From Panopea generosa (Eukaryota; Mollusca; Bivalvia; Adapedonta; Hiatellidae), in NCBI GenBank assembly GCA_029582155.1, contig CM055901.1, forward strand, positions 5,994,874 to 6,058,873: 64,000 nucleotides of DNA. The letters are read 5' to 3'. The notes beneath the pieces are model-generated. The model made no database searches. It saw only the letters and a program-made list of their open reading frames with translations, and was not told where the DNA came from. How positions within the stretch are numbered: the first letter of the stretch is position 1; each line of letters begins with the position of its first letter. Positions 15,901-64,000 of this stretch are shown in pieces. The position numbers and the translations under genes were made by a program.

Positions 15901-18900
15901 GGAGAGATTTATATACAGGCAAGATGGCAACAATAGACCCAAGTAAGGAGAAATTTATATACAGACAAGATGGCAACAATAGACCCAAGTAAGGAGAGAT
16001 TTATATACAAACAAGATGGCAACAATAGACCCAAGTAAGGAGAGATTCAAATACAGACAAGATGGCAACAATAGACCCAAGTAATGGGAGATTTATATAG
16101 AGACAAGATGGCAACTATAAACCCAAGTAAGAAGAGATTAATATACATACATGATGGCAACAATAAACCCAAGTAAGAAGAGATTAATATACAAACAAGA
16201 TGGCAACAATAGACCTAAGTTAGGAGAGACTGATATACAGACAGAATAGTAACAACCGACCCAAGTAAGGAGAGTTTTACATACAGACAGAATAGTGACA
16301 AGGGCCCCAAGTAAGGGGAGACTTACATATAGACAGAATGGCCCCCAATGGACCCAAGTAAGGAGAGATTTACATACAGACAGAATGGAGACAATGGACC
16401 CAAGTAAGTTGAGATTTGCATACAGACAGAATAGTTAAAACTGACCTAAGTAAGGAGATATTTACATACAGACAGAATAGCAACAATCAACCCAAGTAAA
16501 GAGAGATTTACATACAGACAGAATAGCGACAATAGACTCAAGTAAGGAGAGATTTATATACAGACAAAATGGCAACAATAGACTCAAGTAAGGAGAGATT
16601 TATATAAAGACAAGATGGCAACAATAGACCCAAGTAAAGAGAGATTAATATACAGACAAGATGGCAACAATAGACCCAAGTAAGGAGAGATTGATATACA
16701 GACAAGATGGCAACATTAAACCAAAGTAAGGAGAGATTTATATACAGAGAAGATGGCAACAATAGACCCAAGTAAGGAGAGATTTATATACAGACAAGAG
16801 ATTAACATACAGACAGAATGGTGACGACGAACGCAAGAAAGAATTGTGGCAATGGACCCAAATAAGGAGAGATTTACATACAGACAGAGTAGTGACAACG
16901 GACACAGGTAAAAAGAGATTGACATACAGACAGAATAATGATTACGGACGCAAGTAAGGAGAGATTTACATACAGACAGAATTGTGACAATGGACCAAAT
17001 AAGGAGAGATTTACATACAGACAGAATTGTGACAATGGACCAAATAAGGATAGATTTACATACAGACAGAATTATGACAATGGACCCAAATAAGGAGAGA
17101 TTTACATACAGACAGAATAGTGACAATGGACACAAGTAAAAAGATATTTACATATAGACAGAATGGTGACAATGGACCAAAGTACTGACACATGACTTAC
17201 TCGTGAGGATGAGAGGAGTGTTCTTGATGATGACGGTGGCTGTCTATGTGTATTGGTTGTTCCCCCTTCGCTGATATTGGCGGTGTGTCTGTAAATATAA
17301 ATGATGCATACAATACTGATAATTCTACATGAAATACTCTCAAATATTGAAGATTGAAATCAACACTTACATGCTGGATATTTTACTGCAATTTTAAATT
17401 AACTCTATCTTAAAAATTCACAATACATAAAACAATTACTTGGTCACATTCTCAAATATTGTTCAATTAGTGTAAAGATTCTTGAATGAAACTATAGGTA
17501 TACCTCTATGGATAAATACCAAATATGCTGATTGTGCCATTGTGTATTCTTTTTGTTTCTGTCAACAATGCAAACAGCAGCTAATCACATTGTAAAGCTA
17601 TGGCAGATATCCTATCATGTTTTACATGATAACAATTTAAGCAAATGATACACAAAGAACTAGACATTTTTTTTCTTCTTTTTTTGTGTGTTTTTTTTTC
17701 TTCTATTTATTTAAGGAACAAACTGACAACATAATCATCTGTCATTGTGTCCCGTGGCAAAAAAGGTAATCAATTTTGGTGGTTGAAAAACATATATACA
17801 TGTATATATAGAAATTATTATTCTGTTAATGAAACAAAATGGGTAAAATGTATAAAATATTGCAGATTTTCTCAACAAATCAAATTTGCAAAATGCAACA
17901 ACAAAAGACTGTAATAAGCCTTATTGAATGTGGAGAATTCTATTTGCAGTGCAACAGACTAAATTGGTTTTCAAATTGAATTAACGGTAAAAAACAAATA
18001 TAAAACCATAATTCTCTGTTTGATATATGGTGTCTGTCAAGACAATTACCTTATAATAATAAAGCAGTTTTAAAAGATGTGATATCCATTCACAAACTCC
18101 ATCAATAATCAAATTTAAGAGTCACATTCAATGTAAAATAAATAATTTTACAAAATCTTATTAATTACAATGTACATATTTGACTCCTGTTGCTTTCAGT
18201 TGCTAGTTGAAGAGTAAGAAACAGGAAACGTAACTTTGTATTTTATTGTTAATGATTTATTATTTTACAATTATTATTAGAACTAATACTGTTATAACTA
18301 TTATTATTATTTTATTATTATTATTATTATATCATAAAAGTCATATGCTTTTATTTATATTACTACTATTAATACTGCTATGTTTTTTATCATTATAATT
18401 ACTAGTTAAATCATTAAATTACTATTGGCATCACCATTGTTATGTTATCAGTACTATACTTGACACGTTCTTGTTAATTCTACGACCAAAAACCAACACA
18501 TATAGAGAGATTAATTAACATCTAAATACAGATATTTTAAATAAAGCATTCAAGGGCCTTAAAAGAATAGTTAATACATGATACTGTCAAACATAATCAT
18601 AACACAGAAAATACAGTTGAGTTGACGTCAGTTTCATATAAAAACTAATTTAACTTGTAGTTAAGTGAGAGAAATGCACACAAAACACAATTTGTCTAAA
18701 TTATAACAAAATGTATCAAAATAATACTTTCAAAATCCTAACTCTATTACTACTTGGTTTTGTAAATATCTTACCATATAGGGAGAATTCCTGTTAACCT
18801 AATAGCCCCATGTGAGCCTGCATGAAGCAATTCACCTAGACCTACTTATCAGGGCCTTTCCTCCTGAACAATTAAGGGGATCAAGCATGAACCGCCTATT

Positions 18901-21900
18901 TATTCACTCAACCACATTTCAAAACTTCTGTGAATAAAGTTTTAATAATATAAATGAGAAAATTATTCTCTAAAACACAATGTATTACTTAGACCACAGG
19001 GCCACGGAGAACCCATAAATATATTACAATACTAAGTATATATAATTATATGCATATTAGGTCCTTTGTGATAAAAAAAAATGTGGCTATGTGCTCTTTA
19101 ACCCCTTCTACAACTTCACCTGTTCTCTTATATAATTTTTATTAGACAAATCCGGTAATTAATCCAATAAAGGTCAGATTGGAATGAAACCAGGACATCA
19201 TGAAAGAAGATTTACATCCATGTATCATATACAGATAAAGGATGAGGATAATGTGGAACTTCTGAGGTAACTATTATTTTTCACAATTGACCAGGCAAAA
19301 CTTAATATCTGAATTGGCCAGTTAAACAGCTAAGTAAGTGGGTTTGTCATAATAACCTCTGGTCAAGATCCAATGAATAATGAAACCACAGCAAGATAAC
19401 TAAATTCTAACACAAAATAAAAAAAGGAACAATTAACAAACAAGAAATGTCACTGGTAAGTGTCACATGTCCCCCTAATGGTCTGTGAAATGTCACTGGT
19501 AAGTGTCACATGTCCCCCTAATGGTCTGTGACAGTAACAATATATGTTATAATAGGCAGCGATGTATCCATAAATAGCAAAATATCAAGTGTCATGGATA
19601 GAAATTTTAGACTAGACACACAATTTCATGTTTTTTTTAACATTAAAGTGTGACCTTGACCTTTGTGTAACCTTACATCTGATGTTGATCACTTGTGTCA
19701 AGCTATTTTAAAATCCCTCCATGTAAAACAAAGTTACAAACCAGACATGAAATATCATACAAACTGAAAGTGTGACATTGACCGTTGAGGTAAGGTTCTG
19801 GGTCTTAACGCGACACTCTGTCATGTCATGCTGATCAATTGATAAATTGATCTAGGTGTTTTGGAAATACATCCATGAAGGATAAAGTTACAGACTAGAC
19901 TTGAAATCTCAAACAGACTCAAAGTGTTGTCGAACAATCTCAAAGAATGACCATGACCTTTGAGGAAAGGATGTGGGTCTTAAAGCAACACCTCATCATA
20001 TTATGTTGATGATTTGTAGAAATATTAACAAACCCATCTATGCATGACAAAGTTACAGGCCGGACACAAAATCCTACACAGACTCGAAGTGTTGTCAAAC
20101 AAACTCAAAGTGTGACCTTGACCTTTAAGGTACAAGATAGGGTCTTACTCGCGACACGTCTTCATGTTATGTTGATCATTTATAGCAAGAATTAAAAAAT
20201 TTATCTATGCATGACAAAGTTACAGGCTGGACACAAAATCCCACAGACACAAAGTGTTGTCAAACAAACTCAAAGTGTGACCGTGACCTTTGAGGTACCG
20301 GGTGGGTATTACTTGTGATACATCTTCATGTTATGTTGATCATTTGTAGCAAGTATTAACAAAATCCATCTATGCATGACAAAGTTACAGGCCAGACACG
20401 AAATACCGGACGGAAGGACAGACGGACACTGTGATTACTATATGCAACACCAAATGGGGGGGGGGGGGGGATAAAAATCCCTAAACAATTATGTTCAAGT
20501 TCCTACAGATATATACACAATGATAGCTCATGGATGAAGTTATATATCTGGTTCTTTAAACATGTCTGTTAATGTTTTGTTGGGTGCGCATCTTGCCAGA
20601 TTACAATATCTCATTTTGTTTGAAAGAAGACATGTCTCGTTTGACCATGTCATGTTTAAGACCTGTTTTGTAGCTGTCATCTTCTGTTCCGGAAGTGTTA
20701 GGTTTTGTTTGAGAAAGGACATAAAATTATCATGTTTCAGAGATGTCAGGATATGTTTTCGAAAGGTTAGGTGTTGTTTCATTTCATGTTTGGAAACAGC
20801 CACATCTTATTTAGAAGAGGCCATGTTTTGTTTACGAGAGGCCATGTTTTGTTTGCAAAAGATCATATTATCTAGTTTGCAAAAAGTCGTGACTGGTATA
20901 GAGAGGACATCTTCTTTTTGGTGCATATCAAAAGCACCAGTTTCAGGGCCAGTCTGGGTTTTTAGGCAGAGTTGTGAAGCATATAATCAAATACATTTTG
21001 ATACAATCACTGTTTCTATCATTTCAACCATTCATGTCTACAGTTGTAAACCATATCTATATAAATCAAAACTTTAAATCCTAAATATAAATTTTAGAAG
21101 CTAAAATAATACATACAAAGTTTGTAGTGATAACTCACTGTAAATATAACATGCTCACAATGATTACATTGATTTAAATCATTTTTAAAAGAAAAACTAT
21201 AAAAATTAACACACTGGGCATAAAAAAACAACTTGTATAAATGTAAAAAAAAATAATGCATGTATAATCAAAACACTATGTAACTGTTATGCATAATAAA
21301 GTTTTAACGGAAATGATATAACATGTGCATAAGTTTGAACTATATTTAAATAAATTTAAAATAATCAATCGCACCTTGACTACAAATTAATTCCTTTTTC
21401 ATAAAAATAAAGACTACAGACAGACCTGCTGCAGGGGCTCAACTGAACTACCGGTGTGTTACCTAAAACTCAGATGTGTTCCATTTGGCAGAAATAGTTT
21501 ACAGCATTTTGTTATTCATCAAAAATGGTCATAAGCTTAACGGAAAAAAATGTAAATCAGATCGCTTCAGTGCATATCCTTGATTCAAAGGCAAGTAAAA
21601 TGAACAAACAAGTAATTCTTCTAACAGTTGCCTGATGATGTACATTTACATTCAATATATCATTCAGCTGGTTTCTATTAAGTTTTGTTAGTTAACACTT
21701 TAATATATACTGTTGTTACTATACATCAACGTTTTATAATCATTCTGTTAAACACAAAAATACCCCATTTTCCAATTTATTTTTATTTGGTTCAAAGATG
21801 AATGAAAACTTGAAAAAGTGTTTTTCTGTGGACCAAGTATAAAGCGAGCTGGTGCCTTATAGTTCGGTGTTTCAAAGTTTAAATTATTGTCTGCTGGTAC

Positions 21901-28226: not shown

Positions 28227-31200
28227 TTTAGCGTCATTTTTATGCCATCGAGGGCTAACAGACGATCAGTTAACCTAACCATTGTTTCCTGGGATTAACC
28301 AGTACTCTACACACCCTGTCTCCGCAAGTAACTGATAACTTTCCCACTAAAATCAGTGGTGAAAGACAAATGATAATGAGACACAATGTCATATATCAAT
28401 CATCACGGAGACTGTTGCCGGGCGGGGGATTCAAACTCACGGCCCCTGGATTGATAGTCAGACGCGTAACCGACTGAGCTAATCGGGCCCGGCATAAATG
28501 TTTAATACTAGGCACAGTAAACTTTTCAGAGAAATGTCGGTATGCAGTAAATGTTTTACCATGACAAGAAACGTGAGAAATGATACATTATAAAACATCA
28601 TCATCTGGCTATGATATATAAAACTGGGAAATGAAATGACTCTTTTATGCAATACTATTAGAAAAAAAGTTGAAGTAAGTTATCCTCCATCTGTAGGGTC
28701 AATGTATTTTCATTGATACATGTTTGCAGACCTTCTGGAGATAAAAGCTCTTATTCATTTTTATGAGGCGCCAAACATGACTATATTCAGTGACATAAAT
28801 ATATATGTTGTTTGTAAATATATATATACGTTTAAGTAAAATATATACACCCTCGACAAATAAATATGGTAAACTGACTATATATATAAATATTGGCACA
28901 TCGGTAAAAATATATATACATTATGAAAATAAAATATATACACGTTATGCAAACAAAATATATATACATTATGCAAATAAAATATATATACATTATGCAA
29001 ATAAAATATATATGCATTATGCAAATAAAATATATATACATTATGCACACAACCTCAAAGTGGAATCAGTTTTGCAACAAAAAGGTAGTGAGGAATCTAC
29101 CCATTTTAACAACAAGAGTTCCAAGTTCAAAATGGGCCATAACTGTGCCAAAATGCAATCCAGAGTTATGGTTCTTGTCTGTGTGTGTTCCATTGATGAT
29201 GGTGAACACACATGCGAAGTTTCTTTCACATCAAATGAAAGATTGCATATATTAGATATCTTAAACTTAAACACAAAAGTTAAACCTGGGTGTCTACAGA
29301 CGACACCGGGGTCATGGCAATAGCGCTCCTTGGACTTCGTCCCGGTGAGCTAAAAACAGTTAAACAACACATCATAAGCATGTAAATTTTATGTAGAAAG
29401 ATGAAGAAGTAAGTTCAGTATCCATGGGTGGCAAAAATTTTATATGGATATTTCAAGATTTTTTATTTATTACTTTAAAAATGGGCTAAAAACAAGAGAA
29501 TGATCACAAAAAATAACTGTACACGTAAAAAATACAGTATTGAGTATCTGCATTTCGAGACCCATTGACTGGTGCAATCATTAATCATGGGTAATCCATT
29601 ACAATACTCTCCATTCATCATGGGTGGAGAGTATCAGAGCATTCATTCATCATGGGTGGAGAGTATCAGAGCATTCACCCGGGGGTATCCCACGATGGAC
29701 AATATGGTAGTCACTATAGCGAGACAGGCATGGAATTTCTTGCTTTTTCTCTTGGGTTCATCAAACATGAATCAGTCATTGACTGATATAAACTTATAAA
29801 GAGAATGCAATCAATTGATATAGATTTTATAGGAAATGTCATAGATTGATAAAGATTTATTAAGAAAATGCCATAGATTGTTATAAATTTATAAAAGACT
29901 GTCATAGATTGATATAGATTTATAAAGGACTGTCATAGATTGATATAGATTTATAAAGGACTGTCATAGATTGATATAGATTTATAAAGGACTGTCACAG
30001 ATTGATATAGATTTATAAAGAAAATGACATAAATTGATATAGATTTATAAAGAAAATGCCATAGATTGATACAGATTTATAAAGGAAATGCAATTAACTG
30101 ATATAGATTTATAAAGGAAATGTTATAAATTGATATACATGTAGGTTTATAAAGGAAATGCAATAAAGTGATATAGATTTATAAAGGAAATGTCATAGAT
30201 TAATGGACTTAAAAAAGAAATGTCATTGATTGATATAGATTTATAAAGGAAATGGCATAGATTGATATTGATTTATATAGGAAATGTCATAGATTGATAG
30301 ATTTATAAAAGAAATGTCATAGATTTATATAGATTTATAAAGGAAATGTCATGGATTGATAGATTTATAAAGATAATGTCACAGATTGATATAGATTTAT
30401 AAAGGAAATGGCATAGATTGATATAGATTTATAAAGGAAATGTCATGGATTGATAGATTTATAAAGATAATGTCACAGATTGATATAGATTTATTAAGGA
30501 AATGTCATTGGTTGATAAATTTATAAAGATAATGTCGCAGATTGATATAGATTTATAAAGGAAATGTCATGGATTGATAGATTTATAAAGATAATGTCAC
30601 AGATTGATATAGATTCATAAAGGAAATGGCATAGATTGATATAGATTTATAAAGGAAATGTCATGGATTGATAGATTTATAAAGATAATGTCACAGATTG
30701 ATATAGATTTATAAAGGAAATGTCATTGGTTGATAAATTTATAAAGATAATGTCGCAGATTGATATAGATTTATAAAGGAAATGTCATAGATTGATAGAT
30801 TTATAAAGATAATGTCATAGATTGATATAGATATATAAAGGAAATGTCATCGGTTGATAGATTTATAAAGATAATGTCACAGATTGATAAAGATTTATAA
30901 AGGAAATGTCATGGATTGATAGATTTATAAAGATACTGTCACAGATTGATATAGATTTATAAAGATAATGTCACAGACTGATATAGATTTATAAAGATAA
31001 TGTCACAGACTGATATAGATTTATAATGGAAATGTCATTGGTTGATAAATTTATAAAGATAATGTCATAGATTGATATAGATTTATAAAGGAAATGTCAT
31101 GGATTGATAGATTTATAACGATAATGTCACAGATTGATAAAGATTTATAAAGATAACGTCACAGACTGATATAGATTTATAAAGGAAATGTCATTGGTTG

Positions 31201-34200
31201 ATAGATTTATAAAGATATTGTCACAGACTGATATAGATTTATAAATGAAATGTCATAGATTGATAGATTTATAAAGATAATGTCGCAGATTGATATAGAT
31301 TTATAAAGGAAATGTCATAGATTGATAGATTTATAAAGATAATGTCACAAACTGATATAGATTTATAAAGGAAATATCATGGATTGATAGATTTATAAAG
31401 ATAATGTCATAGATTGATATAGATTCATAAAGGAAATGTCATAGATTGATATAGATTCATAAAGGAAATGTCATAGATTGATATAGATTCATAAAGGAAA
31501 TGTCATAGATTGATATAGATTTATAAAGGAAATGTCATAGATTGATATAGACTTTAAGTGTAAATGTAAAATTTAACAATTGGCAGATTCTTCAAAACTT
31601 GTCACATAGATTCATCCTACAATTTTCTTAAAACAAAGTTGAAATGCTTTAAATCTTTTACATCTGATGCCTTTGATAGTATTCACTTCACACAAAAACA
31701 GATAAAACAGAAAATACACGTAAGAATAATAGCGCTCTTGTAACATTACCTTGGTGAAAGAGTGACAGCGTTTCCTGCGACACCAACACCCGTGATTAAA
31801 TTAAAATCCACTGTGCAGACAATATAACAGTTGATTACTACCATGGTATATAACAACTCTAACAATATCACACCAAAACAACAAGTCATTACTTATATAA
31901 GATTTTTTTCACAAATATAACTATAATTTATCATAATAATACTGATAACGATATACTTTATATGAAGTGCATGGTAGAGTATTTTACTTGAGCAATGTAT
32001 TTTATCTGAACATGCTCAATACTGGTTCCAGCCAGGAATAAAAACTAGCAAGAGAGATTTGCATATCTCTATCATAATTTATTTAAAGGGAATATATCAG
32101 GATTTTTCAAAATTTTAAGATATGTTTTTCGTATATAGCATGCATATATCTACTCACTGACCCTGAATTGCCAAAAGGATATCTTTAAACATGTGAAAAT
32201 AATATAATGAAACGAGAAATCCTAGGTAAGACTAAAATCGATTCAAAACATTTTATGGCGCATAAAATGAGTTGTGATTTCATTTTAATTTCGATTTGAA
32301 CCATGATGCAGATTAAAAAATTGATAAAAATTGTTTCCTGTTAGTAATAGAAAGGGTCCGAATGACGCCAAGAAGTATTTTAGCACTGCCTAATTTTAGA
32401 ATGGGGATTTCTTTTCAAGTTCTCCACTCCAATTTAAATATCCAATTTGTAGCATTTTAGTGGATTTAACAAACCAAACCACTCAGATTTTATTTTATTA
32501 GTGATAATGAGATGCTTTTATCTATTTCAATAATTTTTAATTTTTTAAGATATTTATAGCATTTATTCCAGATATACTCCCTTCAAAAGACGTTTAAACA
32601 AACGACATCATCAGCGGCCCTTTCAACAGCTCCAGAGAGTAAAAATGTTATACTTTAGACATAATTTTTTTTATCATGAACATAATGAGAGGAAATTTGC
32701 ACCAAAATCATACATAAGTATTTATTTTTTCTGTGGAATAACTCTGTACATATATATTTGGGATGATGACCAATATCAGATTTTATATTTTACTTGAAAC
32801 TTAATGTCTCTGATAAATTGAGTAATTCTTAAAACAAGAGGCCCAAGAGGGCCTGAGGATGCTCTGCTGTCTCATAGTGGCCACTAAGCACTTTTTGAAA
32901 TTTCACAATATTTACCCTCTTTGGGGGTCGTCTTATCAACTTATGAATAAATACCCCATCCATACCCATTATAAACAAAAAGCTAATTGCTATGAAAAGA
33001 TAATACTTTAAGTTCCAATACCATTCATCTGTTAAAAAAAATAGTCCCTGTACAGAATCCATATACAACCAGTAGCCTTCTTGATTTGCCAGAATTTCAA
33101 TCGCCCACTCTTAGGTATTTGTTATGAGCAGAAATGCTTTAGATTTTAAATAGAAGTAAGTTTTTTTGTACACATGGATGTGAAAATGAAATAATTCAGT
33201 TTTCCTTATAATATTCCTATGTAAAAGTAAAAGTCACCTTGAAGGACCCCAATATAACCCAGTCCCTTGATATGCGGAATCTTCAATCCCTTGCTGATGT
33301 AAAGATAATTTATATCAAATATGAACTAGAGGAAGATTTATGAAAATTCCAAATTTAAACCATATTGCCCCCATTCCCTGGCCCCTTATGGAAATTCAAT
33401 CCTCTTTGTTGAACAAAATCAATTTTGCTGTTACTTGACAATGCTTTAGATCTCAAATTGAAAAACATAACTTATTATACACACAAATGGACGACAAAAT
33501 GAGAATTTTCCATATTCCCATAGTATTCCTATGTAAAACTCAAAGTCCTGATAAGGCCTCTATACATTCCAGTGCCCCTTAATTTGTACAAACTTAGAAC
33601 TCTTTATCATATGGGTAATTTATATTAAATATGAACAAATCTGACTGACTGGTTATTGAGAATAAGAACTATAAGAGAATGCTCAATTTTAACCACTTTG
33701 TGACCCAACCTGACTCCTTTTAGAAAGTCAATCCTTCAAATCTTATTTGTTATAACTAGAAGATGCTCCAAAACTCAAAATGAATATAAAAAAAAATCAT
33801 AAATGGATGAAAGAATGAGAATTTCTTGTTTTCCCATAGCATTCCTATATAAAACTCAAAGTCCCCTTACAGGGTCCCTATAAATACAAGCAGCTTGATT
33901 TGTACAGACTTTAAACCCATACTCATTGTGATAATCTATACCAATTATGAACAAATTTTACTGATCAGTTATTGAGAAGAAGATTTTTGAAAATTTTCTA
34001 TTCTAACCATTTTTTGAGCCACCCTGGCCCCTTATGGAAAGTTTATTTTCCTTATTGAACCATATCTTATTTTCTATGACAAGATGATGCTTCAAGACTT
34101 AAATTGAATAATAATTTTGCCAAAATGGATGAAAAAAAAAAAAGAATTTTCTGTTATCCAATAGTATTCCCTATATAAAACTCAGTGCCCTTACAGGGCC

Positions 34201-40200: not shown

Positions 40201-43200
40201 ACACACAGATATAAACTTACAACTTCAATTTTTACTATTCATGCAAAGTTAAGAATTCATCAATAAATTTATTCAATTGTTTTTTCTGTTCATCAAATGT
40301 TGTTTTGAAGTAATGAGAAATGAGATACACCAATCCAGTCTTAATGCAGGAGTTCTCATTGTAAATTAACTTGTCTGTGACCTAGTGTAACTTTATGATA
40401 AAATAAAAGAGATAATATTTTTAATGTTGAGACATTTTTAGATCTCAAAGGAATAGACATAAATTTATTATTTAAAAAACTTTATCAAAATTTACAAATC
40501 TTTGGACTCAAACTTGGTGTGTATTTTGTACACAATTTAAAAAAAGATTTATGTACCTTGTCCTGTGTCATCTGATGACGGGGAGGCTATGGTTATGTTT
40601 TTACGAGATGATTTCTTCCTCCTGCGTTTTGTCTTGCCAGCTTTATCGACATCACTGGTATTGTCAGAGTTGCTGGCTTTCCTGGCCAGGCCACCACGAC
40701 CATTACTGGCACTGTTGTTTTTACCCGAGCTAGGACTCTGTGTGGCCAATGTCCGCCTCTTCAGGAACATGTAGCGTCGATTCTTCTTCTGAGATTCTCT
40801 GATAATTATGGGTATTTTTTTTTAAATAATAGCACAATGTACATTTTAATTCATTACAAATAAGTTCTTATGAATTCATGTTTTATAAGCTACATTGCCA
40901 GTAATCTGAGTACAGAAAACATCATAGGAAGCAAACATTTGAAATTGAAGCCAGATTAAATATGATATATTCTCCCATTCACAGAGGATATTTGTTTGTT
41001 TTGGTGTAAAGTCGAATTATATTTCATTATGGGATCACCAAAATAACAAATGTTAACGGTTTAAGATTTGTATGGTTGAACAAAGCAGAGGAAATTGAAC
41101 ACTTATTTTTAGGGGGTGAATGAGAATGAAAGATAAATATTTGCAAAATTGGTATAGCTTATTAGAATCAATATGAACTGATGGTGCATAAGCATATTAA
41201 ACCATATTATGGGAAAGAAGCTTATGTTTCTATACTTAATGTTAGGAAATTTAAATGTTTTGCAGTTTAGAGCTGGCGTACATAGCTTGGAAGTGGAAAG
41301 AGGAAGGTACAATAACATCCCTAGGAATGAACGCATTTGTTAAGTTTGTTCACTCAATCAAGTAGAAAATGAATTGCATTTTATTCTTGTCTGTCCTATT
41401 TACGAAGATTTGTGTTAATTATATATACCACGTAAATATAGTACTGGTAGAAATATTCATAAACTGCACATACTTTTAGTAAGTCAGAATGTAAAAACTA
41501 TTCATGATGTTGCTTCATACATTTATTATGCAACATTAAGGAGGAAAATATTTCTTGAATTGTGAAGTAGAACAATCATAAATTAATCACATATTGTTAA
41601 TCATTTAATACTTGACTGCAATGCAGATGTGTATATTCTTTTTCTGTATATTGTTATATGTGTCATGGGCTGGAGGCCTTAATCACAAATAAACGAATTG
41701 AACTGAATTAATAAACGAATGGAATGGAATTGAATTGAATTGAAAGTCATATTTTCATGTCAGAGTGGCTTGCAACAAGCAAGAAATTTATATATGGTGA
41801 TCACGAGATGAAATATCATTTGACCTTTAATACACCAAAACAAACAAATTTTCTTTTTATTTTATGCGTTCATATAAATTCCTGTTTATTTACGCACAGA
41901 TTCCATAATATCATGTACTGACCTTAATTCACCATCAAATATTATTGAACAAAAATAACTGCAATTAAAACAAAAATTAAAGTACCTTTTCATATGATAA
42001 ATTTTTTAAATGAATATTCAAGGACAAAAATTTTTTTAAAAAAATAATTTTATAATTTCAGTTTGAAACAGTGGATTACCATCAACAGTCCATGGAGAAA
42101 TCTTTATAATTCATCAAAAAGCATCAAATAAAACAGTCCCTTTAATTAATAATTTACTTATTTTATATCATTCAAGTATGCAGTACTGTGTAACAAACAA
42201 CTAACCACCTTGGGCTTATTTTGCCAAATATCTCAAAATTAGAACTAAAAAATATATCTTTCTCTAAATGATAACTTGACCTCTGTACACATGACCTAGA
42301 ATTGAAGTCAGAACAAATCTTTACTCAATGGTAAAGGATAATATGCAATATGATTTATGTTGCAATCGCGTATCATGTATAGTGAGTTGTCGTGTGTTAT
42401 TGTTTAAACAATTTGTGTTATGATGATGCCTTGTACGTCGTGTTGCTTTCTATTCACATGTTCCATCGGCACGAGAGGTGTGGTGACCCTGGTCCCTGCA
42501 GCGAGCTTGTGGATTGTGACGGCGACGGCGGCGACATAGCGCCTGTGTTCAGAGCAGAGGTTTGGTGGTAATTGTGGAAAACGGTACGTGGTCCATCTTT
42601 TTGCCATATTGTTTTTTCAATATTTCAAAATTTTGAGTTTTCGAGTTGATTGATTAATTGAATATTTAGCATCATTTTTATGCCATCAAGGACTAACAGA
42701 CGATCCGTTATCCTAATCTGTTTCCTGGGATCCTTAAAGGTTAACCAGTACTTAAGCACACCCTATCTCCGCAAGTAATTGATAACTTTCCCACTTGAAT
42801 CAGTGGTGAGAGACAAATGATTATCAGATACAATTTTGTATATTAATCACCACGGAGACTGTTGCCGGGCGAGGATTCAAACTCACGACCCCTGGGTTGA
42901 CAGATGCATAACCGACTGAGCTAATTGGGCCCAGCTTTTTCAAGTTAAACACACACAAATGACTCCTGTTTTTTTTTTCCTATATAAAATCTAGTAAATA
43001 CCTGCCAATACAATCTTCATTTAAATTCCATTTGATAACTCAAGCCAACATAACAAAGTTACTTAATACAGCTTGGTATTCTTTTTTTTAACAAGTCAGC
43101 TCCTGCGTTGATACTTACATATCATTATTGTTAGAGTTGACATTTGCATCTATGGGATTAGTTGGTTGCCTGGGCTGATATCCTGGGAGAGAAGTGGCAC

Positions 43201-46200
43201 TGGCTTTGTGCATATCCAGAAGTTCTCTCCCTTCTCTTTGATCGTGAGCACGTTGCTGACTGACAGGAGATAAAACTTGATTGGATGGGGGAGATTCTAA
43301 TGAAATCATCTTTGTTTCAGCCGTTGGTGGTTGGGATTTCCGTAAGTTGCCAGACTTGGGTGGCCGAAGATTTCCACTTGTGGGTGTTTTAGGTGGTGGA
43401 AGATCAGATGGAGAAAGATTTAGGAAATATCTGCCAGTAGGTAGAGGTATACGACTAGATGGACCTGCTCCCTTCTTGGATAAAGCAACCTGAGAAATAG
43501 ATGAACCAAGCATGTTTACAGATTTACAACCTTGCAACCTTATATCTGTTGTTCTGGATACATGTGACAGCAATTTTGTGTAGCATTTTGAAGAAAAAAT
43601 GGAGCGGCTCTATATGGCTTATTCTTCATTTCCATTTCATTCCAGTTTCCTGGATTTAAACCATATTAAATATATGTTGGTTTGTCATTAGGTAAAAAAT
43701 GCTATCATTGGTTCCAGTCCACTGGCTACTCCAGCTTTCAACTTGATCAACGTTGTAATCTAATGGCAGTGGATCATAAAATTCAAATTTGCTTGTTAAT
43801 TTTGTATAATTATACAAGTGAAAGAGCGTGGTATCCTTGAGATCCTTTTTGCATATGCTTATTACTGGTTCTAAGAAGGAAGACTTTGAGCATGACTTCT
43901 ATAAGTCAAACTAAAATCAATAAGTTTAAACTAAGCTAAGTTGAAGGAACATAACATAAACTTCATAGTGACTTTATGAGTTGTTACTTACATTTGTTTG
44001 GGTAATCAGTTCTGCAAAATACCTTTTCCATCTATACAAGTCAAATATAAAAAGTCAATGTAAGATGTAAATTTTACACAGTAATTGACCCTGGTTTGCT
44101 GGTTACTTTAAAACCTGTTTGTGAATGACCCACCAAGTTCATGTTTTTGCTAGTTATTTTAAAATCTGTGCATGAATGACCCACCAAGTTCTTATTTTTG
44201 CTAGTTACTTTAAAACCTGTGCATGAATGATCCACCAAGTTTATGTTTTTTCTAGTTACTTTAAAACCTGTGCGTAAATGACCCACCAAGTTCATGCTTT
44301 TGCTAGTTACTTTAAAATCTATGCATAAATGACCCACCAAGTTCTTATTTTTGCCAGTTACTTTAAAACCTGTGCATGAATGACCCACTAAGTTCATGCT
44401 TTTGCTAGTTATTTTAAAATCTGTGCATGAAAGACTCACCAAGTTCATGTTTTTGCTAGTTACTTTAAAACCTGTGCATGAATGACCCAACAAGTTCAGG
44501 TTTTTGCTAGTTACTTTAAAACCTGTGCATGAATGACCCAACAAGTTCAGGATTTTGCTAGTTACTTTAAAACCTGTGCATGAATGACCCAACAAGTTCA
44601 GGTTTTTGCTAGTTACTTTAAAACCTGTGCATGAATGACCCACCAAGTTCATGTTTTTGCTAGATACTTTAAAACCTGTGCATGAATGACCCAACAAGTT
44701 CAGGTTTTTCGCTAGTTACTTTAAAACCTGTGCATGAATGACCCAACAAGTTCAGGTTTTTGCTAGTTACTTTAAAACCTGTGCATGAATGACCCAACAA
44801 GTTCAGGTTTTTGCTAGTTACTTTAAAACCTGTGCATGAATGACCCAACAAGTTCAGGTTTTTGCTAGTCACTTTAAAATCTGTTTATGAGTAACCCACC
44901 ACATTCATGTTTGTGCTCGTCACTTTAAAATCTGTTTATGAGTGACCCACCAAGTTCATGTTTTTACTAGTCACTTTAAAATCTGTTTGTGACTAACCCA
45001 CCAAGTTCATATTTTTGCTTGTCACTTAAAAATCTGTTTATGAGTAACCCACCAAGTTCATGTTTTTGCTAGTCACTTTAAAACCTGTGCATGAATGACC
45101 CACTTAGTTCATGTTTTTGCTAGTCACTTTAAACTCTGTTTATGAGTAACCCACCAAGTTCATGTTTTTGCTAGTAACTTTAAACTCTGTTTATGAGTAA
45201 CCAACCAAGTTCATGTTTTTGTTAGTCACTTTAAACTCTGTTTATGAGTAACCAACCAAGTTCATGTTTTTGCTAGTCACTTTAAACTCTGTTTATGAGT
45301 AACCAACCAAGTTCATGTTTTTGCTAGTCACTTTAAACTCTGTTTATGAGTAACCCACCAAGTTCATGTTTTTCAGCTGTTCCACTTTATCATCCTCAGC
45401 TTGCCTCGACATCTGTGACACATTACTACCTGCTGAGAATTGTCTCATCTCCCCCCGCTTGTCCACAGGGGCTGTAGTTAACGTTAGGCTGACAGCCTGT
45501 GATGATGATGATGACGAGGCTTGAGGGGCGGATCTGCTAATTGTTTGATTGACAGACACATTTTGTCGCCGTCGTGACTGTTGGGTGATGTTTGGTCGAG
45601 TGGCTGCAATTACAATATAAAATTATCATATTACATTAAGAAAGTTTCCATTTTTTTAAAAAATCTCTGCCTGAAAACTACCAACATGTTTAATTTGAAA
45701 CATGCAAGCCAGAATTTCTAAAAAAAGATCTTTAGAGATTCTTGAAACACTGAAATTACTATAAATTCATCAGGGTTTTTTTTCTCAATATTTTATATCA
45801 CATGATTAATAATATGTTTAGACATATTTGTATAACAGACTCACATCTATGCAATTCATTTTATATTTAATACGTAACAGGCTAATAAAAGCATTCAGTT
45901 TTAACAGTTGCCGCAAAACCTCTGAATAAGTCTGAGATGCACTATTGTCTTTGTATAGACTAAAAATGTTTTGGTTTGTATAATGTTTTCTATGGTGTTT
46001 TTAAACTTTTTGGTTATTTATTAGTGGTCATTGCATTTAATTACCATTCCATGGATCTGCTAGGCAATTAACCAGTACTAATTACATCTCTGCAAGCCAC
46101 TGACTACCACCCCACATATTCAGAGATGAAAACCTCAATGTCATAGAACAAAGTAACATCAGACTTAGGCTGTACACGGATCTCACGACCACTTCTGAAT

Positions 46201-49200
46201 GAACAAAACATTTACACTACAATTATGAGCACTCACTCTCTCTTACTGGCCCAAGTTCTCTACGACCTTGTGTAACAGAGTCCCGTCTATTGTACCGTGA
46301 TGCTACACTGGAGTTAGTTGTAGATGCCGTAGACTCTGAGGAATTGTTTCGGGAATAGATGCTACGATTCGCAGTAGAGTTGTCGTTATTGTTTCCCATT
46401 CCAAATCTGAATCCACGATTATTGTTCTGGTTCCCGGGACCATTTATACTGTCAGACGAAATACAGAAAACATCTGTCTCAATCAGTGTATGTTATGGAA
46501 CTTGTATAATAAATGCAGTCAGATGTTTCATAAATAATTTGAAGTTATGTGTTAATATATTATATCAGTAAGAGTAAAGTAAACAGTCATCAAATAAATT
46601 AAATTAACTTCATCACATCAAGGACTTGTATAGAAGGATAGGAAACATCTCCTGACTAAATGTTGATGAAACAGCATACGAAGGATTCAAAATTTGCAAA
46701 CTAGTCATTCATAATTCACAGGCAACTGATTTCTTGTACAAAAACTATAAGTTGTATGTAATCTTAGATGTTTAAACATGTTTTGATCACTTAAAATGCT
46801 CTTGAATATATATTGAGGTTTGAAGGAAAAATTATCATAATTTGTCATTATTCTAGCTGCAGTATACAAATTTTGTAATCACAAGTACTTCAACAATTTT
46901 AAACACAAATTTCTGAGAATGGTATTGTTTTAATGATAGTTTCATTCTGCAGTGTAAGAATTTTTATTTGTGTTCCTGAGATGAATGGAAGTTAAGATAA
47001 TTAAAAACGAGATATTAAGAGATTTTGCATTCACAAAATCTCATTCAGTTGCCTTTCCTACTCTATAAAATTCCTTGATCACATCAACAATATTGTGTTT
47101 TGCCAGTCTTTTGTAATGGAAAGAAAAAGAAAATCATAATCAATGTAAACAATAATGAATTCATTATTAATATCTGAATATTAGGTTTTCTTTTATTATT
47201 CCCAAGACAATTATATAATATGAGAACAAATGGACAGCCAATTTTAACGATTATTGAAAACACATTCAAAGACAGTATAACCCTTTACTCCATAGATACG
47301 CGTTTTCCCACACCAATCTCAGAAGGCCTTTGAAAACAATGCAGGAAGAGTTCAGATTGCTTGTAACAAGCAATCTGAACACTTCCTGCACTGTTTTCCA
47401 CTCTGTAAGTTAATATAAACATAATTCACCCAATAATTCAAAAGCCTTAAAGGGATAATGATATTTTGGAATGTAAATTATCTTTTTTATGTCTTTTTAT
47501 AAAAAAATATAGCTTGCAAAAAACAGATTAAAAAGTTTATTTTATGGTATTAAAGTTCTATACACAACCGTATTGTATAAATAAAATTAAAAAAAAACGA
47601 GTTAAAAAATAATGATAATGGACTTTACCTGTTGTTTCTGGAAAGAGGTTTTGTTGGATTTCTGGGAATGCGTGGACCGCCACGAATACTTCGGAGGAAT
47701 CTACGTACACTCTCCTTCACACCAGTCAGACTATTATGCTCCGACAAGACGAGCCGAGACCAAGGATTGCAGTCATACATGTCTATTGCAGCTATTGCAA
47801 GTGCTCGACCGACCTGAAACAAATCATTAAATATTAATATTCCGACAGAAACACACCATACATTTGGATTCATGTATAATCAAGTCCCTCAGGTTTTAAT
47901 AAATCAACAAAACACCTTGTTTTGATTAGCCATCCCATGCAAATAAAAATACTGAGCATAAACCCCCTTTATAATTGCCAGGGAGACATGCAGTAAGATA
48001 TAGAAGTTTATATTTATAGCTTTATTGTTATAGCTTTATTGTATATAGTTATTGCTTTATTGTATATAGTTATAGCTTTATTGTCTATTGTTATAGCTTT
48101 ATTGTCTAATATTATAGCTTTATTGTCTAATTGTCTATTGTTATAGCTCAATCTTATTAAAATCAGATCAACTTTAGTTTCTATACTCTACGCATAGTAG
48201 ATCTGATGACCACGCATAGGAGGTCACCTCAGATTGACCTTTCATGTAATTAATATTCATAACAATTCAGCCAGTCAGATTAATCATTCACAATTTACAG
48301 CATGGCATTCTAGAGAAATTGTATATAATGCACTTATCAATCGCATAGTGCTGTTTCCTGGGTGTTGATTCACCCACAGTGATCTTCCTATGTTGTATAA
48401 ATAAAAAATGTCCTGGTATTGTCCCCATTTTCTAAAATTTCTTAAAACCATAAATGTTTAACATGGGATCAACCATGCTAGTTTAGTCATGAAAATTATT
48501 AACGCATGATGATCGCACATTATATAGCTAAATATAGACTTGTACTATCACTTTCAAAATTTTCTTGGTTGGCAGAAAGGTCAATCTGAAGTGACCCTCT
48601 ATGCATGCTGTCAGATCTACTGTGCGTAGAGTTTTGAAGCTGAAATTGATCAGTTTTTAATGATATTGGTTATAGCTTTATTGTCTATTGTTATAGCTTT
48701 ATTGAAGTACACCATAAGCTGTATTTTATTTACACAACAAATAAATGAAGTAAATATAAGTATAGCTAGAATTTAAATATAGCTTTATTGTAAGATATGA
48801 CAGTTGGCAACATGAATAATTTCACACAAAATTTAAATGAAATCGCAACATGGAAGTTTCCTTATCAGTTTGCTGTTCATGTCAGTTTTAACACTGTACA
48901 TGGACTCAGATCAGCTTGCTTCTAGTTCTTCTGATCAGTGTCTACATTGTTTAATTCTAAGTCAATCAGTCAATTCTTCCAATATACTTACTAGTCAATT
49001 AAGTTAATTTATTTAATGTCAATTGTGAGTTTTATATCCACTAATTCTTAGTACATTTGTGTAGCTACTAGCTATTACCTCCTCGTAGTGAGCCTGTGTG
49101 TACTTGGGTGGGAAGCCTGCCAAGGGAGGGGGAGTGGCTCGTCCATCGTCCCCATATGCTTGTGGGACGGGATTCACCATACGCCCAGTGTTGTAGTTAC

Positions 49201-55200: not shown

Positions 55201-58200
55201 GATTGAAACTATCGCGACTAGAAAGTACAAAACCTCCAGGGAAATTTATATTAATATCTGTATCGTCTTCATCTTGAATCACCCTATTCATAACATGGTG
55301 ATAAACAATAACACTTTTTGAGCCATATATACCGGGATGGTAGTCTATACTTGGGTCCAAGTACAAGCGGTTGAGATTCACACCTCTCTGATCAGTGCGA
55401 TAGTGACCTCGCTGCACGCCATCAGGATTTAGCATTGGGATCAACTTGAAAACAAAATGTCTGCGAAGAGATTTGGCACGCGGGTCATTATCACGTAGAA
55501 TGAAGTCAAGGAAACCATTAAACACAGAACTGGCAGGAGATTCGCCTGGGTGAACACGACTACTTAATAAATAAATCTGAAATAATAAAAACAAAAAAGC
55601 ATGGCAATAAATCTTTAATATTAACATGAATCATACATTTTCAAAGATTTTAAATACGTACAATTTGAGCTGTCATTCATCTTGTAATGGGATTTTTTCA
55701 ACAGTTAATTACATAAACAACATTTATATTTTTCATAATTTTACTACATGTTATTATTCATAAAATTATGATTGTCTTTTTATCCAGTATACATTTACTT
55801 TCTTTATATTTAATTTGAGATTAAAAATTGAATTTTGTCAAAATTATCAAAATTCCCTGATGAAAAATCTTCATGTTTGGGACTTACAATTATATTAAAA
55901 ACTGAAATAAATCAAAGTTATGAAGTTAAATATTTGTCCATATAAACAAAATAAATTTTTCTTCTGTTCCTTATACAAAAAGGGTAACATTCACTAACAT
56001 TATTATTTGTTAAAGGGAATATATTAGGATTTAAAAAAAAAAAAATTAAAAACATTTTTTCCAATATATTAATTAATAATGACAAGCTTTTTTTTGTCAT
56101 TTTAAGAATATATTTTTTTTAAGACATGTACAGTGTTGTTTCCTGATAAACTCCCTTTACGTTTAAAAAGTATGTCCATGTAAATTTCACCTCCAACAAA
56201 AAGCATTGAAATTCATTCAGTATAAAATGTCAAATGATTATTTTTTTTCAAAACAAAATTCTGTGTTTTATAGAATACTATAAATAATTTATATGAAACA
56301 GAAATGTTCTTTGTAAAATCAAACAGACAAGACTGAACAAGACACCCATAATAAAGTTAAGAGTTACTAGTCGCAGTAAAAACAAGATAAATGTATCCAG
56401 TTTGTCAAATGATGCATTTTTAAATAATTACAATAATTGCTAGCAGAGTGTATGAAAGAAATGTGACAGTGTACAATGGTTTAAGAACTATACATACAAT
56501 TATTGAAGACTATTACTTTAATAGAATAGAAAAGAAATCTACATAAAGTTGTTTTCTGTAAGCATTTGTGTTAGATGACCTCTTGGGCTTTACTTCATTG
56601 AAGTAAGATAAATAACTTGTTTGTATAATATAATATGAATGAAATTCTAAAATTTTGTCACTGTAGCAGAAAAAGTGAATTGAGAAACAGCAAAAAAGCA
56701 GTCAATTAAACATGTAATTTGATAAACAAATAAATTCATTAACCATTGCTGAAAAAAATAGATGTTCCAATTGCATGACAAGAATTATATAAGTTGGTCA
56801 AGCATACCAAGAAATACTAATTAAATATATCTGAAATAATTCCAGCAAGAATTTAAAATATAGTGTAAGCTATAGTTGAGATGATCTTCTGTTTCAAGAG
56901 TAGTTTATCAATGTTTTACATATGTGATATATGCACTACCTTCAAAACATATGGTAATATACCAGTTACATATACAATATTTGCACTTCACATCGCGGAT
57001 GCCCTTTCATGAAAATGAAAAAAAAAATATTTAAAGTTTCAGAATTTTTTTTTAAGAAGTGAATAATTATAACTGAGCTTCAAGCCTTCAAGTTTGGTAG
57101 AAAAATATTTTTTAAGTTTTCCCTATATAACATTATATAACAGTTTGACCCCTTAGGGTGGGCCAATTTTGCTCCCAGGGTCATGGTTCTGAATAAATTT
57201 TAGAGAGGGCCACAACCTTCTTGGTAAAACATCTAAGCTCAAGACCTTGTACTACAAGCTTTAACTCGATAAAAAGCTCTAATAAAATTTCTAAGTCTAA
57301 AAAGGCAATAATTCTGCCAAAATGCAATCAAGTGTTATGGTTCTTGTCTCTATGAGTTTCCTAGAGGATGCTGAACACACATTTGATGCTTCTTTCATGT
57401 CCAATGATATGTTGATGAAATAAGTACCAACTCAAAAACTTTTAACCTTCTAAAAATCTCTAACCAAAGTAAAAAAGGGCTATAACTCTGTAAAATTGCA
57501 ACCCAGTGTTATGGTTCTCATCTCTGTGCATTACGTTGATGATGCTGAACACACATGTGAAGTGTCTTTCATATCGAATGATAGGTGATGAAAAATGTAC
57601 ATGCTGAAAATTTTTTAACCAACTTTTCTAAGTCTAAAAGTGCCATAATTTTGCCAAAATACAACCCAGAGTTATGGTTCTTGTCTCTGAGCATTCTGAT
57701 GATGCTGCTGAACATAATGTGACGCATAGATATCTTATCTGAAAAAAAACTTATACCTCAAAAATTAAGTCCAAAAAGGACCCTAACTGTGCCAAAATGC
57801 AACCCAGAGTTATGGTTATTGTCTCTGTGTGTTCCATTGATGATGCTAAACACATGTGAAGTTTCATTCACATCCAATGAGTGGATGCAAAGATATCTTA
57901 CCTGATAAAAAGCTCAAACCTGAAAAAATTTAGTCCAAAAAGGGCCATTACTGTGTCAAAGTGCAACCCAGAGTTATGGTTCTTTGTCTTTGTGTGTTCC
58001 ATTGATGATGCTGAACATACATATGAGGTTTCATTCATATCCAATGAGTGGTTGCATACATATCTTATCTGATAAAAAACTTTGACCAGAAAAATTAAGT
58101 CAAAAAAGGGCCATAACTGTGCCAAAATGCAATCCAGAGTTATGGTTCTTGTCTCTGTGTGTTCCATTGATGATGCTGAACACGCAAGTGAAGTTTCATT

Positions 58201-61200
58201 CATAACAAATGTGTGGTTGCATAGATATCTTACCTGATAAAAAGTTTTAACCTGAAAATCCAATGCCGAAGCCAACGCAGACGCCAGGGTGAGTACAATA
58301 GCCCCCCCCACATATTCTACGAATAGTCAAGCTAAAAATTAATCTGTCAGGGCTAGGGTCATGACATTAGTGTTTCGATTTTTAAAATAAAACAAGCATA
58401 TAATCATGATAATGATATCGTCTAAAATTCAATGTCTTCACCATGTTCATGGCTTCAAACTTTAAAAAACATTCTATTATACCTTTTTACCCCTGAATTT
58501 CTTGCATCTTTGTTCCTTCTTTTCAGGAAACAAATTTGAATCAAAGCGTGGCTCTTTCTCATCAAGGAGTCCATGGTAGGAGGAGATTGTTACAAGATCG
58601 ATGCGTAGTTTGTCCATGGAGTAACACAGAAGTTCTCTATGGTAGTATATAGAATCTGCACCACTGGAAAACAGAAAATTAACAAATCCAGGGTTTACTG
58701 CATATCAACAAAAGCACTGTATGACGCAAACTTATACTTTAAAACAAGGTGTACAGCCATGACTTTTTGAAAGTGCTAAACTGTATCTGTTATTTTAGTT
58801 TACCACTTAGTGTCGCAGCTGTATTAATGGACTCAGTATGAACACCTTCAAATAAATCAGAGTTCACCCAATTCAGAACATGTCCAAAAATGTTAATTAT
58901 TATGTGAATTTACATACATGTAATATATACATAACTTTAACCATTTTAATCACTTTTTTTTTTAATTACTCACTATATTTTCTAAATTTCTAAAATATAT
59001 ACCAAAACCAATATTTCTAACAGTATGTTAAAACATTTTTATCAAATATATTTTGAACCAGGTTATATTCGCAATGTTAAGAGTGCAAATTAAATTGCTA
59101 ATAATCTAGTTAATTTGTTCACAATTAATATATGTCATGTACAGGAACTTTATCAGATTTTATCTTCTGTTTTAATGTATATTTATACCTAAACTTATGT
59201 GTGTTTACGTTCATTTGAATTAATAAATATATTTAAACCAAATCAGAGCAACAAATTAGCAAACTTTCTCACAATACATCTTCAGATGAAGCGGGTCTCA
59301 TTCATGCCCACAATGTGTTTGAGTTGGAATTTAAATACCATGGTTTGATCATGTAAAAAAGATTGGGTTAACAAGTTTATATGTATACCAGTGTCCCTAC
59401 CAGAAATTTTAATTGAGAAGTACAAAAAAATGGAGGTCCACATTAAGAAAACTCCATCAAATGTAAGGCCATTATAAATTAATTGCTGGATTATCATCCA
59501 AATTTTTCTTAAAAACAGTGAGGGCCGAAAATTTTATTTTTTATTTTCTATTTTTAAAATTTTTGATATGTTTTTATTTATTTATTTTTATTTTTTTTTA
59601 AATAAAAATTAAAAGGGTCGGGGCAGCATGAAATAAGGGGCTGGGCAGGGATGATAATTTAGCTATTAATTTATCAAGGCCTAAGCAATTTGTTTTAAAA
59701 ATAAACAAATTGCATTCACCATAGCTTCCAATTCCCCAGATGATGTTATTACTTTATTTGAGGGAAGGAAGTAAGTGTTTTTGAATTTGAAGGACCTAAA
59801 TCCTGGGTCCTCTGAGAGGGGAATTTCGCATTGTTTTTGTGTTTCATCATACCTTGAATTATGCAGAAGAACTCATCATACATGTATAACAAGTTAAAAT
59901 TAGTGAAAAAAAGTATATTCAAGAGCAGGGGGAATAGAGTTGTAAATTCGGCCCCAAAAACAGCCAAATGAGGGTCCTGAGTTTCTATACCTAATAACCT
60001 GGTAATGCATTCTTTGCTGGTTTTTAATAAAAATACAATATTTTGAATATCCTTTTGAAACAAAATAGCTTGGTCATTGTTAACTGTTGTCAAAATTTGC
60101 TTACTCATCATATTTGATGGACCATTTTCCAGTAAGTTTATCATTAAAAAAGATACACTGTTTTTATAGATTTTGAAAAACACTTCAATGTGTATAGTTT
60201 GTCATGTTTTATATCAATCATTTCATCAGTTTTGTGTTATTGATGATTTTTGGTTTTTATTTTGTCAAAATCTATCCAGAATTGAGAATATTGATTTGTT
60301 CATTCATATTACTCAATTGTGAAACACGAAAAAAACAGACAAATAGCTCTCAAGTCCTCCTGGGTATAAGCAGTACTTTAGTATATGCAGAAAGTGCCTT
60401 GCTCAAAGGATTGAACTCAGTACCCTCCGACTCTGAGTCTGGTAGTCTACTGCTGGACCATGCACCCCATAGTTGATTGTTTATGGTTTAAAAGGAAGTT
60501 TTACCTATGAGTGCTCCTTGCATTATCCAGTATAATTTTCACCATTTTTGGAACTGGGAATATTAGCAGCTTTATCATTAACATTAGAAAACTTTTGTAT
60601 TAAATATATGTCTTCAAATCATAAAAATGTGCACACTTAATTCTCTTCTTTTGATTAAAGAAGCAATGTCATACTCAATTCAGAATGGGGAGAACTTTTA
60701 TTTTTTTATCAAGGAATTATGGCAAGTTTATTGCAATTATTGAAGCTTTCAATTGAGATTTTTTACCACTCAGTTGGGAAAAAAAGATACTATTTGCCAT
60801 TGGGAATATGATCGAATAACGGCTATAAAACTGGCTGAAAAAAAAACACTGTCATCAATCTTATTTTCCAGTTATTTAGGTCACTTAAGCATAATATCTC
60901 TCACATCACCCAGAATACACATTCTGTCCTCGGTTATTCAGTCAAGTAAGTATATGTAAAGGGTTCAAGATGTACATAAATTGTATATAATATAATCTAT
61001 GTTCATTTGATAATACGTGTGCATTTATGTATCTGTTATAAATAATGAGATGTTATGTGAAAGGCTTAACAAAGATAGTGTAAAAACATGCTGTTAGATT
61101 TAATAACCTTTATATTGAGGAACATACATGTATTTGAAAAGCGCATAAAAGTCATCATTATTGATTGTACGCTTAATTATCTTGAATCACATTGGTCATG

Positions 61201-63087: not shown

Positions 63088-63184
63088 CTACAAAGAAATT
63101 TAAGAATGTTAGTTTATACTATTTTATTTCATGAAAGCATTAAACAATGATGCCATGCTGCTTCAGGTCACTCAGATAGACTTA

Positions 63185-64000
63185 AGGCCAAGTTACAGAG
63201 TGGAGGAAATCTCGGACATGAAGAACCATGCCATGCTGTTCCAGGTCAGATAGACTTATGGCCAAGTTACAAAGTGGAGAAAATCTTGAACATGAAGAAC
63301 CATGCCAGATGTTCCAGGTCAGACAGACTTATGGCCAAGTTACAGAGTGGAGAAAATCTTGAACATGAAGAACCATGCCATGCTGTTCCAAGTCGGATAG
63401 ACTTATGGCCAAGTTACAAAGTGGAGAAAATCTTTAACATGAAGAACCATGCCAGATGTTCCAGGTCATATAGACTTATGGCCAAGTTAGAGTGTGGAGA
63501 AAATCTTGAACATGAAGAACCATGCCAGATGTTCCAAGTCAGATAGACTTATGGCCAGATTACAGAGTGGAGAAAATCTTGAACATGAAGAACCATGCCA
63601 GATGTTCCAGGTAAGATAGACTTATGGCCAAGTTACAGAGCAGAGAAAATCTTTAACATGAAGAACCAAGTCAGATGTTCCAAGTCAGATAGACTTATGG
63701 CCAGGTAACAGAGTGGAGAAAATCTTGAACATAAAGAACCATGCCATGCTGTTCCAAGTCGGATAGACTTATGGCCAAGTTACAGAGTTGAGAAAATCTT
63801 GAACATGAAGAACCATGCCAGATGTTCCAAGTCAGATAGACTTATGGCCAAGTTAGAGTGTGGAGAAAATCTTGAACATGAAGAACCATGCCATGCTGTT
63901 CCAGGTCATATAGACTTATGGCTAAGTTAGAGTGTGGAGAAAATCTTGAACATGAAGCCATGCCAATTGTTCCAGGTCAGATAGACTTATGGCCAAGTTA
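63185..64000. repeat. 73-74-bp minisatellite, continues past window edge
   Basis: About 11 units keyed on CTTATGGCCAAGTTACAGAG and AACATGAAGAACCATGCCA. CTTATGG recurs at 63255, 63328, 63402 and 63475. Two unit types mix, with CATGCTGTTCC or CAGATGTTCC. It lies about 100 bp upstream (in gene sense) of the first visible AGBL5 acceptor, in an intron whose other end is off the window. Confidence 0.92.

Follow-up and report, generated by a model that had tools for sequence, protein, structure and literature searches.

The region analyzed here is a window of 64,000 nucleotides from the bivalve Panopea generosa, whose minus strand carries a gene of the M14 carboxypeptidase family. An open frame at 54233-55630 matches Peptidase_M14 (Pfam PF00246, E 1.9e-09), and the exon in this frame matches the solved chains of cytosolic carboxypeptidase-like protein 5 (CCP5) with E 1.6e-58. 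The exon at 47629-47813 also matches solved CCP5 (E 3.6e-09), at the end of the solved constructs (residues 477-521 of 524 in chain 8v3m_A). Judged by these matches, the gene is AGBL5, encoding a CCP5-type M14 carboxypeptidase. No solved structure matched the open frame at 61588-61824.

The exon at 47629-47813 and four exons downstream of it, all on the minus strand, share a single open frame over four junctions. Two of these tail exons lie at 46237-46448 and 40557-40798. Between them lie the tail exon at 45359-45603, known as exon 9 in the numbering of the original prediction, which is preceded by an acceptor ending in TTGCAG and closes with TTG before the donor GTGGGT, and the next exon, exon 10 in the same numbering (43119-43489), which is in phase 0 and ends in TTTCTCAG followed by GTTGCT. 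The residues encoded past the 47629-47813 match have no counterpart in the solved CCP5 chains, and a Pfam search of the four open frames holding the tail exons returned nothing above the cut-off. The end of exon 9 is therefore predicted from frame, phase, and splice-site consensus. A near-perfect hairpin (47332-47398), perhaps the remnant of a small mobile element, lies in the intron that separates the exon at 47629 from the one at 46448; its two 33-nt arms are 94% complementary and 1 nt apart.

The end of exon 9, AAAAACATGAACTTG followed by GTGGGT, is located at 45373-45353 of the minus strand, at the edge of a tandem array that TRF places at 44095-45373 (period 51, 25.1 copies, 91% matches) and that accounts for 1264 of the intron's 1869 bases. 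Cutting this array yields 25 units of 51 bp, except for unit 13 (44710-44761), which holds an extra base and counts 52, and a trailing AAA. Since minisatellites are made of head-to-tail units of about 10-100 bp in many copies, an array of 25 x 51 bp belongs among them. Unit 1 opens with the final 15 coding bases of the exon (45359-45373, encoding K N M N L), and the native donor hexamer GTGGGT follows at 45353-45358. The original prediction had described the end of exon 9 and its donor as the beginning of a 51-bp unit repeated about 25 times into the intron, and both the position of the predicted exon end and the copy number agree with it.

The copies of the junction fall into a few types of donor. 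The GT is kept in 18 of the 25 units: 13 read GTGGGT (units 1, 5-10, 15, 20-22, 24, and 25), with an A at position -1 in units 6 and 20, three read GTTGGT (units 2-4, with their donors at 45200-45307), one reads GTGGAT (unit 23), and one reads GTGAGT (unit 19, 44434-44439). The remaining seven units read TTGGGT (units 11-14 and 16-18, within 44455-44863). Scored as consensus log-odds with frequencies from human data, the native donor reaches 7.2, a value equaled or exceeded by 11 of the 24 extra copies, the best of which is the GTGAGT of unit 19, with its donor at 44439 and a score of 9.0. The many intact copies, the single improved one, and the three weakened units adjoining the exon had all been announced by the original prediction and were found as described. 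The block of seven units with a displaced GT was correct in number, but it is not unbroken, as the intact unit 15 interrupts it.

All of this depends on where exon 9 ends. If the tail exon ended instead at another in-phase GT, the array would be purely intronic, and exon 9 offers no Pfam match against which its end could be checked. Nevertheless, the 16 GTs of exon 9 and the bases just after it have the native donor at the top, the other 15 reaching at best 2.3 in phase and 4.5 in any phase (the latter out of phase). The native score is also in line with those of the other four mapped donors (4.6-7.7), the frame runs on into the next exon, and the phase-0 acceptor of that exon fits the present exon end, all of which makes a misassigned boundary very improbable. 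Most splicing presumably still takes place at the native donor. Predicted local folding does not favor this donor, as its probability of being unpaired is 0.002, compared to a median of 0.022 over all 9-mers, and all 25 donors are predicted to be mostly paired (P unpaired <=0.028).

The consequence of using any other copy is largely set by the first bases of the intron, which read GTG GGT TAC TCA TAA. The TAA, at 45344-45346 of the minus strand, is in frame as the fifth codon past the native exon end, so both intron retention and the use of any downstream donor of the array are predicted to yield a protein ending in ...KNMNLVGYS. The truncation of a retained product had been anticipated from the outset, together with a 51-bp period that preserves the frame. 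The latter holds for units 2-13, whose donors are in phase with the native one, but not for units 14-25, whose donors the extra base in unit 13 moves out of phase by one. This shift hardly matters, since the TAA gives every downstream donor the same truncated tail. Such a truncation would remove the C-terminal tail and spare the catalytic domain, or else trigger nonsense-mediated decay. Additionally, an open frame of 213 amino acids runs through the distal units; it was set aside as a coding candidate, as one open unit copied repeatedly suffices to explain it.

The array bears the marks of repeated local duplication. Identity between units drops with distance, from 0.913 for immediate neighbors (lag 1) to 0.804 for units 19-21 positions apart, a pattern that local duplication predicts, and the 25 units comprise 20 distinct sequences. 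Unit 1 is identical to unit 5 across its 51 bases, which indicates that the exon-bearing unit joins in the turnover of the array. In a tree of the units, in which a single inner branch is well supported, units 2-4 cluster with one another and with units 1 and 5 at moderate branch support. On the basis of this grouping, the GTTGGT of units 2-4 is probably one mutation copied twice rather than three separate events. Leaving aside the extra base of unit 13, five of the seven TTGGGT units have the same sequence.

Whether the donors are under selection was approached through raw column means, which are descriptive. Changes between neighboring units average 2.0 per column in the nine donor columns and 2.12 in the other 42, minor-variant counts are 1.78 and 2.38 in the same two sets, and differences from the consensus per cell over units 2-25 amount to 0.061 in the 15 exon-derived columns, compared to 0.101 in the other 36. 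The lower variation in donor and exon-derived columns could be a hint of constraint or the mere result of subfamily structure, and the comparison of nine donor columns with 42 others gives no clear signal of selection on donors.

As to its origin, the array was probably born in place by duplication of the exon 9/intron 9 junction of AGBL5, and then expanded and partly homogenized. According to this model, a 51-bp piece spanning the junction would have been tandemly duplicated, expansion and partial homogenization would have brought the array to its 25 units, and every duplication would have placed in the intron a further copy of the donor and of the five codons before it. In the present sequence, 17 copies that keep the GT follow the native donor, and 11 of these equal or surpass it in consensus score. 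The trailing AAA, which repeats the three bases that open the unit, might fit slippage between short repeats, but it is short enough to have arisen by chance.

The distribution of the unit in the genome is consistent with this origin. A 24-base junction pattern, searched with up to three mismatches in the 39 contigs of the 1.47-Gb source genome, was found at 28 sites or more, the counts being lower bounds; 25 of these sites lie within the array, and the three outside it carry three mismatches each. A reversed control pattern was found at 0 sites of the same genome, the whole array region matched only itself there, and unit pieces compared by BLAST with the window, with the array masked, gave short matches only (best E 0.072). 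At the sensitivity tested, the unit thus looks private to the AGBL5 locus, as would fit an origin through tandem duplication of the junction.

The opposite order of events, in which the array arose within the intron and later took over the end of the exon, would turn KNMNL and the donor into repeat-derived additions to the protein. The exon just upstream of AAAAAC is not clearly repeat, so the border between exon and array could be a breakpoint. An anchored gapped extension upstream of the 15 shared bases scored 5.0, a value that 12 of 1046 other exonic 36-mers and 219 of 3000 random 36-mers of the window also attained. The identity of units 1 and 5 is also compatible with a takeover. However, such a takeover requires that the unit happened to hold a correctly phased donor, the present exon end is in keeping with the phase-0 junction to the next exon, and the search of the source genome gave no other source of the unit, so this order of events seems unlikely. 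Growth from the splice junction, with the exon end within the edge unit and the junction pattern nearly confined to the array, is the best-supported origin, and this part of the original prediction is retained as a probable one.

The position of an array on a splice site is not in itself remarkable in this window. Ten arrays were counted (TRF, at least 5 copies, period of at least 20, overlapping rows merged), which together cover 13.9% of it. Over 20000 trials of random placement, 12% brought an array edge to within 20 bp of one of the ten mapped splice sites, and in 52% an array covered such a site; both figures are probably underestimates because the mapping takes in only five of the gene's exons. 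Other large minisatellites are found at 13410-17184 (46 bp), 29775-31556 (32 bp), and 63172-64000 (73-bp period), all of them at least 9 kb away from the ten mapped splice sites. Tandem repeats with a 165-bp period were also reported by TRF at 57724-58258 and 19865-20404, a period reminiscent of the 160-bp repeats of bivalve Helitron-like elements. Judged by eye, positions 42860-42930 of the minus strand resemble the head of a tRNA-derived SINE (TTAGCTCAGTCGGTTATGC ... GGGTCGTGAGTTTGAATCC), and ARAGORN called no tRNA gene in the window.

A functional role for the extra donors has also to be considered, with the array acting as a bank of decoys that tunes the balance between full-length and tail-less CCP5 under the control of repeat number. 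The 11 extra units that equal or outscore the native donor and the identical truncated end given by all downstream choices agree with such a role, and intronic VNTRs in TERT (PMC11830802) and ABCA7 (PMC6660495) alter splicing or correlate with it, according to excerpts of both reports. On the contrary, the raw column means give little sign of extra conservation in the donor columns, and the GT is lost in seven of the 25 units and weakened in three, each pattern resembling one mutation spread by duplication. A bank of this kind is therefore very unlikely. Equally doubtful is the broader proposal that the native donor evolves in concert with its decoys, with turnover weakening or strengthening it and the number and type of repeats setting the share of tail-less CCP5 from one individual to another; it would have the exon-bearing unit trade sequence with the array, as the identity of units 1 and 5, with the GTTGGT units lying between them, might suggest. 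The weight that the original prediction placed on the many donors, and on the three weak ones beside the exon, is not supported, as donor columns vary about like the others, the weak units cluster at moderate support, and the downstream choices share one stop. Following duplication in place, the array itself would most likely be close to neutral, possibly with occasional mis-splicing: the occasional use of a downstream copy, or retention of the intron, would add VGYS and a stop, giving rise to a tail-less CCP5 or to decay of the mRNA.

The closest known system is the minisatellite of the human gene IFI6, which adjoins the end of an exon and has a unit of 12 bp. In IFI6, the use of a downstream unit adds in-frame residues and the rest of the protein is kept. 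Two downstream repeat units act there as splice donors, leading to three mRNA species, as stated in an excerpt of PMC4526556; the primary paper, Turri 1995, is listed in the references of both PMC4526556 and PMC2572611. The AGBL5 minisatellite likewise offers several splice donors, here candidates known from the sequence, and likewise sits at an exon end, with 15 exon bases and the native donor in unit 1 and the GT in 18 of 25 units. Contrary to IFI6, whose copies are used in mRNA and give rise to protein isoforms in the excerpted account, the copies of AGBL5 are predicted donors. Moreover, the AGBL5 unit is of 51 bp and carries an in-frame TAA, and the gene is an unrelated carboxypeptidase. 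The in-frame extension of IFI6 has no equivalent in AGBL5, where the fifth intron codon is TAA and units 14-25 are out of phase.

Other intronic repeats have been connected to splicing. The VNTR6-1 of TERT intron 6 has a 38-bp unit and has been shown to alter splicing (PMC11830802, in excerpt); it resembles the AGBL5 array in being an intronic minisatellite of similar unit size and copy number, but it is located some 3.5 kb upstream of exon 7, and G-quadruplexes have been proposed as its means of action, with no splice-site copying in the excerpted text. In ABCA7 intron 18, skipping of exon 19 correlates with the length of a VNTR (PMC6660495, in excerpt). This repeat is intronic like the AGBL5 array, but a copied donor goes unmentioned in that excerpt. 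An array of copied donors is thus not described in the excerpts on TERT or ABCA7, nor in those on the intron repeats of fish myostatin-2 (PMC3045353) and earthworm metallothionein (PMC12783039). Among the papers listed in a literature search for splice-donor minisatellites, no clear second case besides IFI6 stood out, and a search on the rules for choosing between duplicated donors returned nothing.

The AGBL5 locus gathers 25 near-identical donor contexts in a natural series within a single gene, and the variants GTGGGT, GTGAGT, GTTGGT, GTGGAT, and TTGGGT come ready-made. Such a series could reveal how the spliceosome chooses among equal donors and whether the turnover of minisatellites endangers a real splice site. 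Compared to the known systems, the AGBL5 array is a further example of the IFI6 kind in an unrelated gene, with the twist that the first intronic copy brings a stop.
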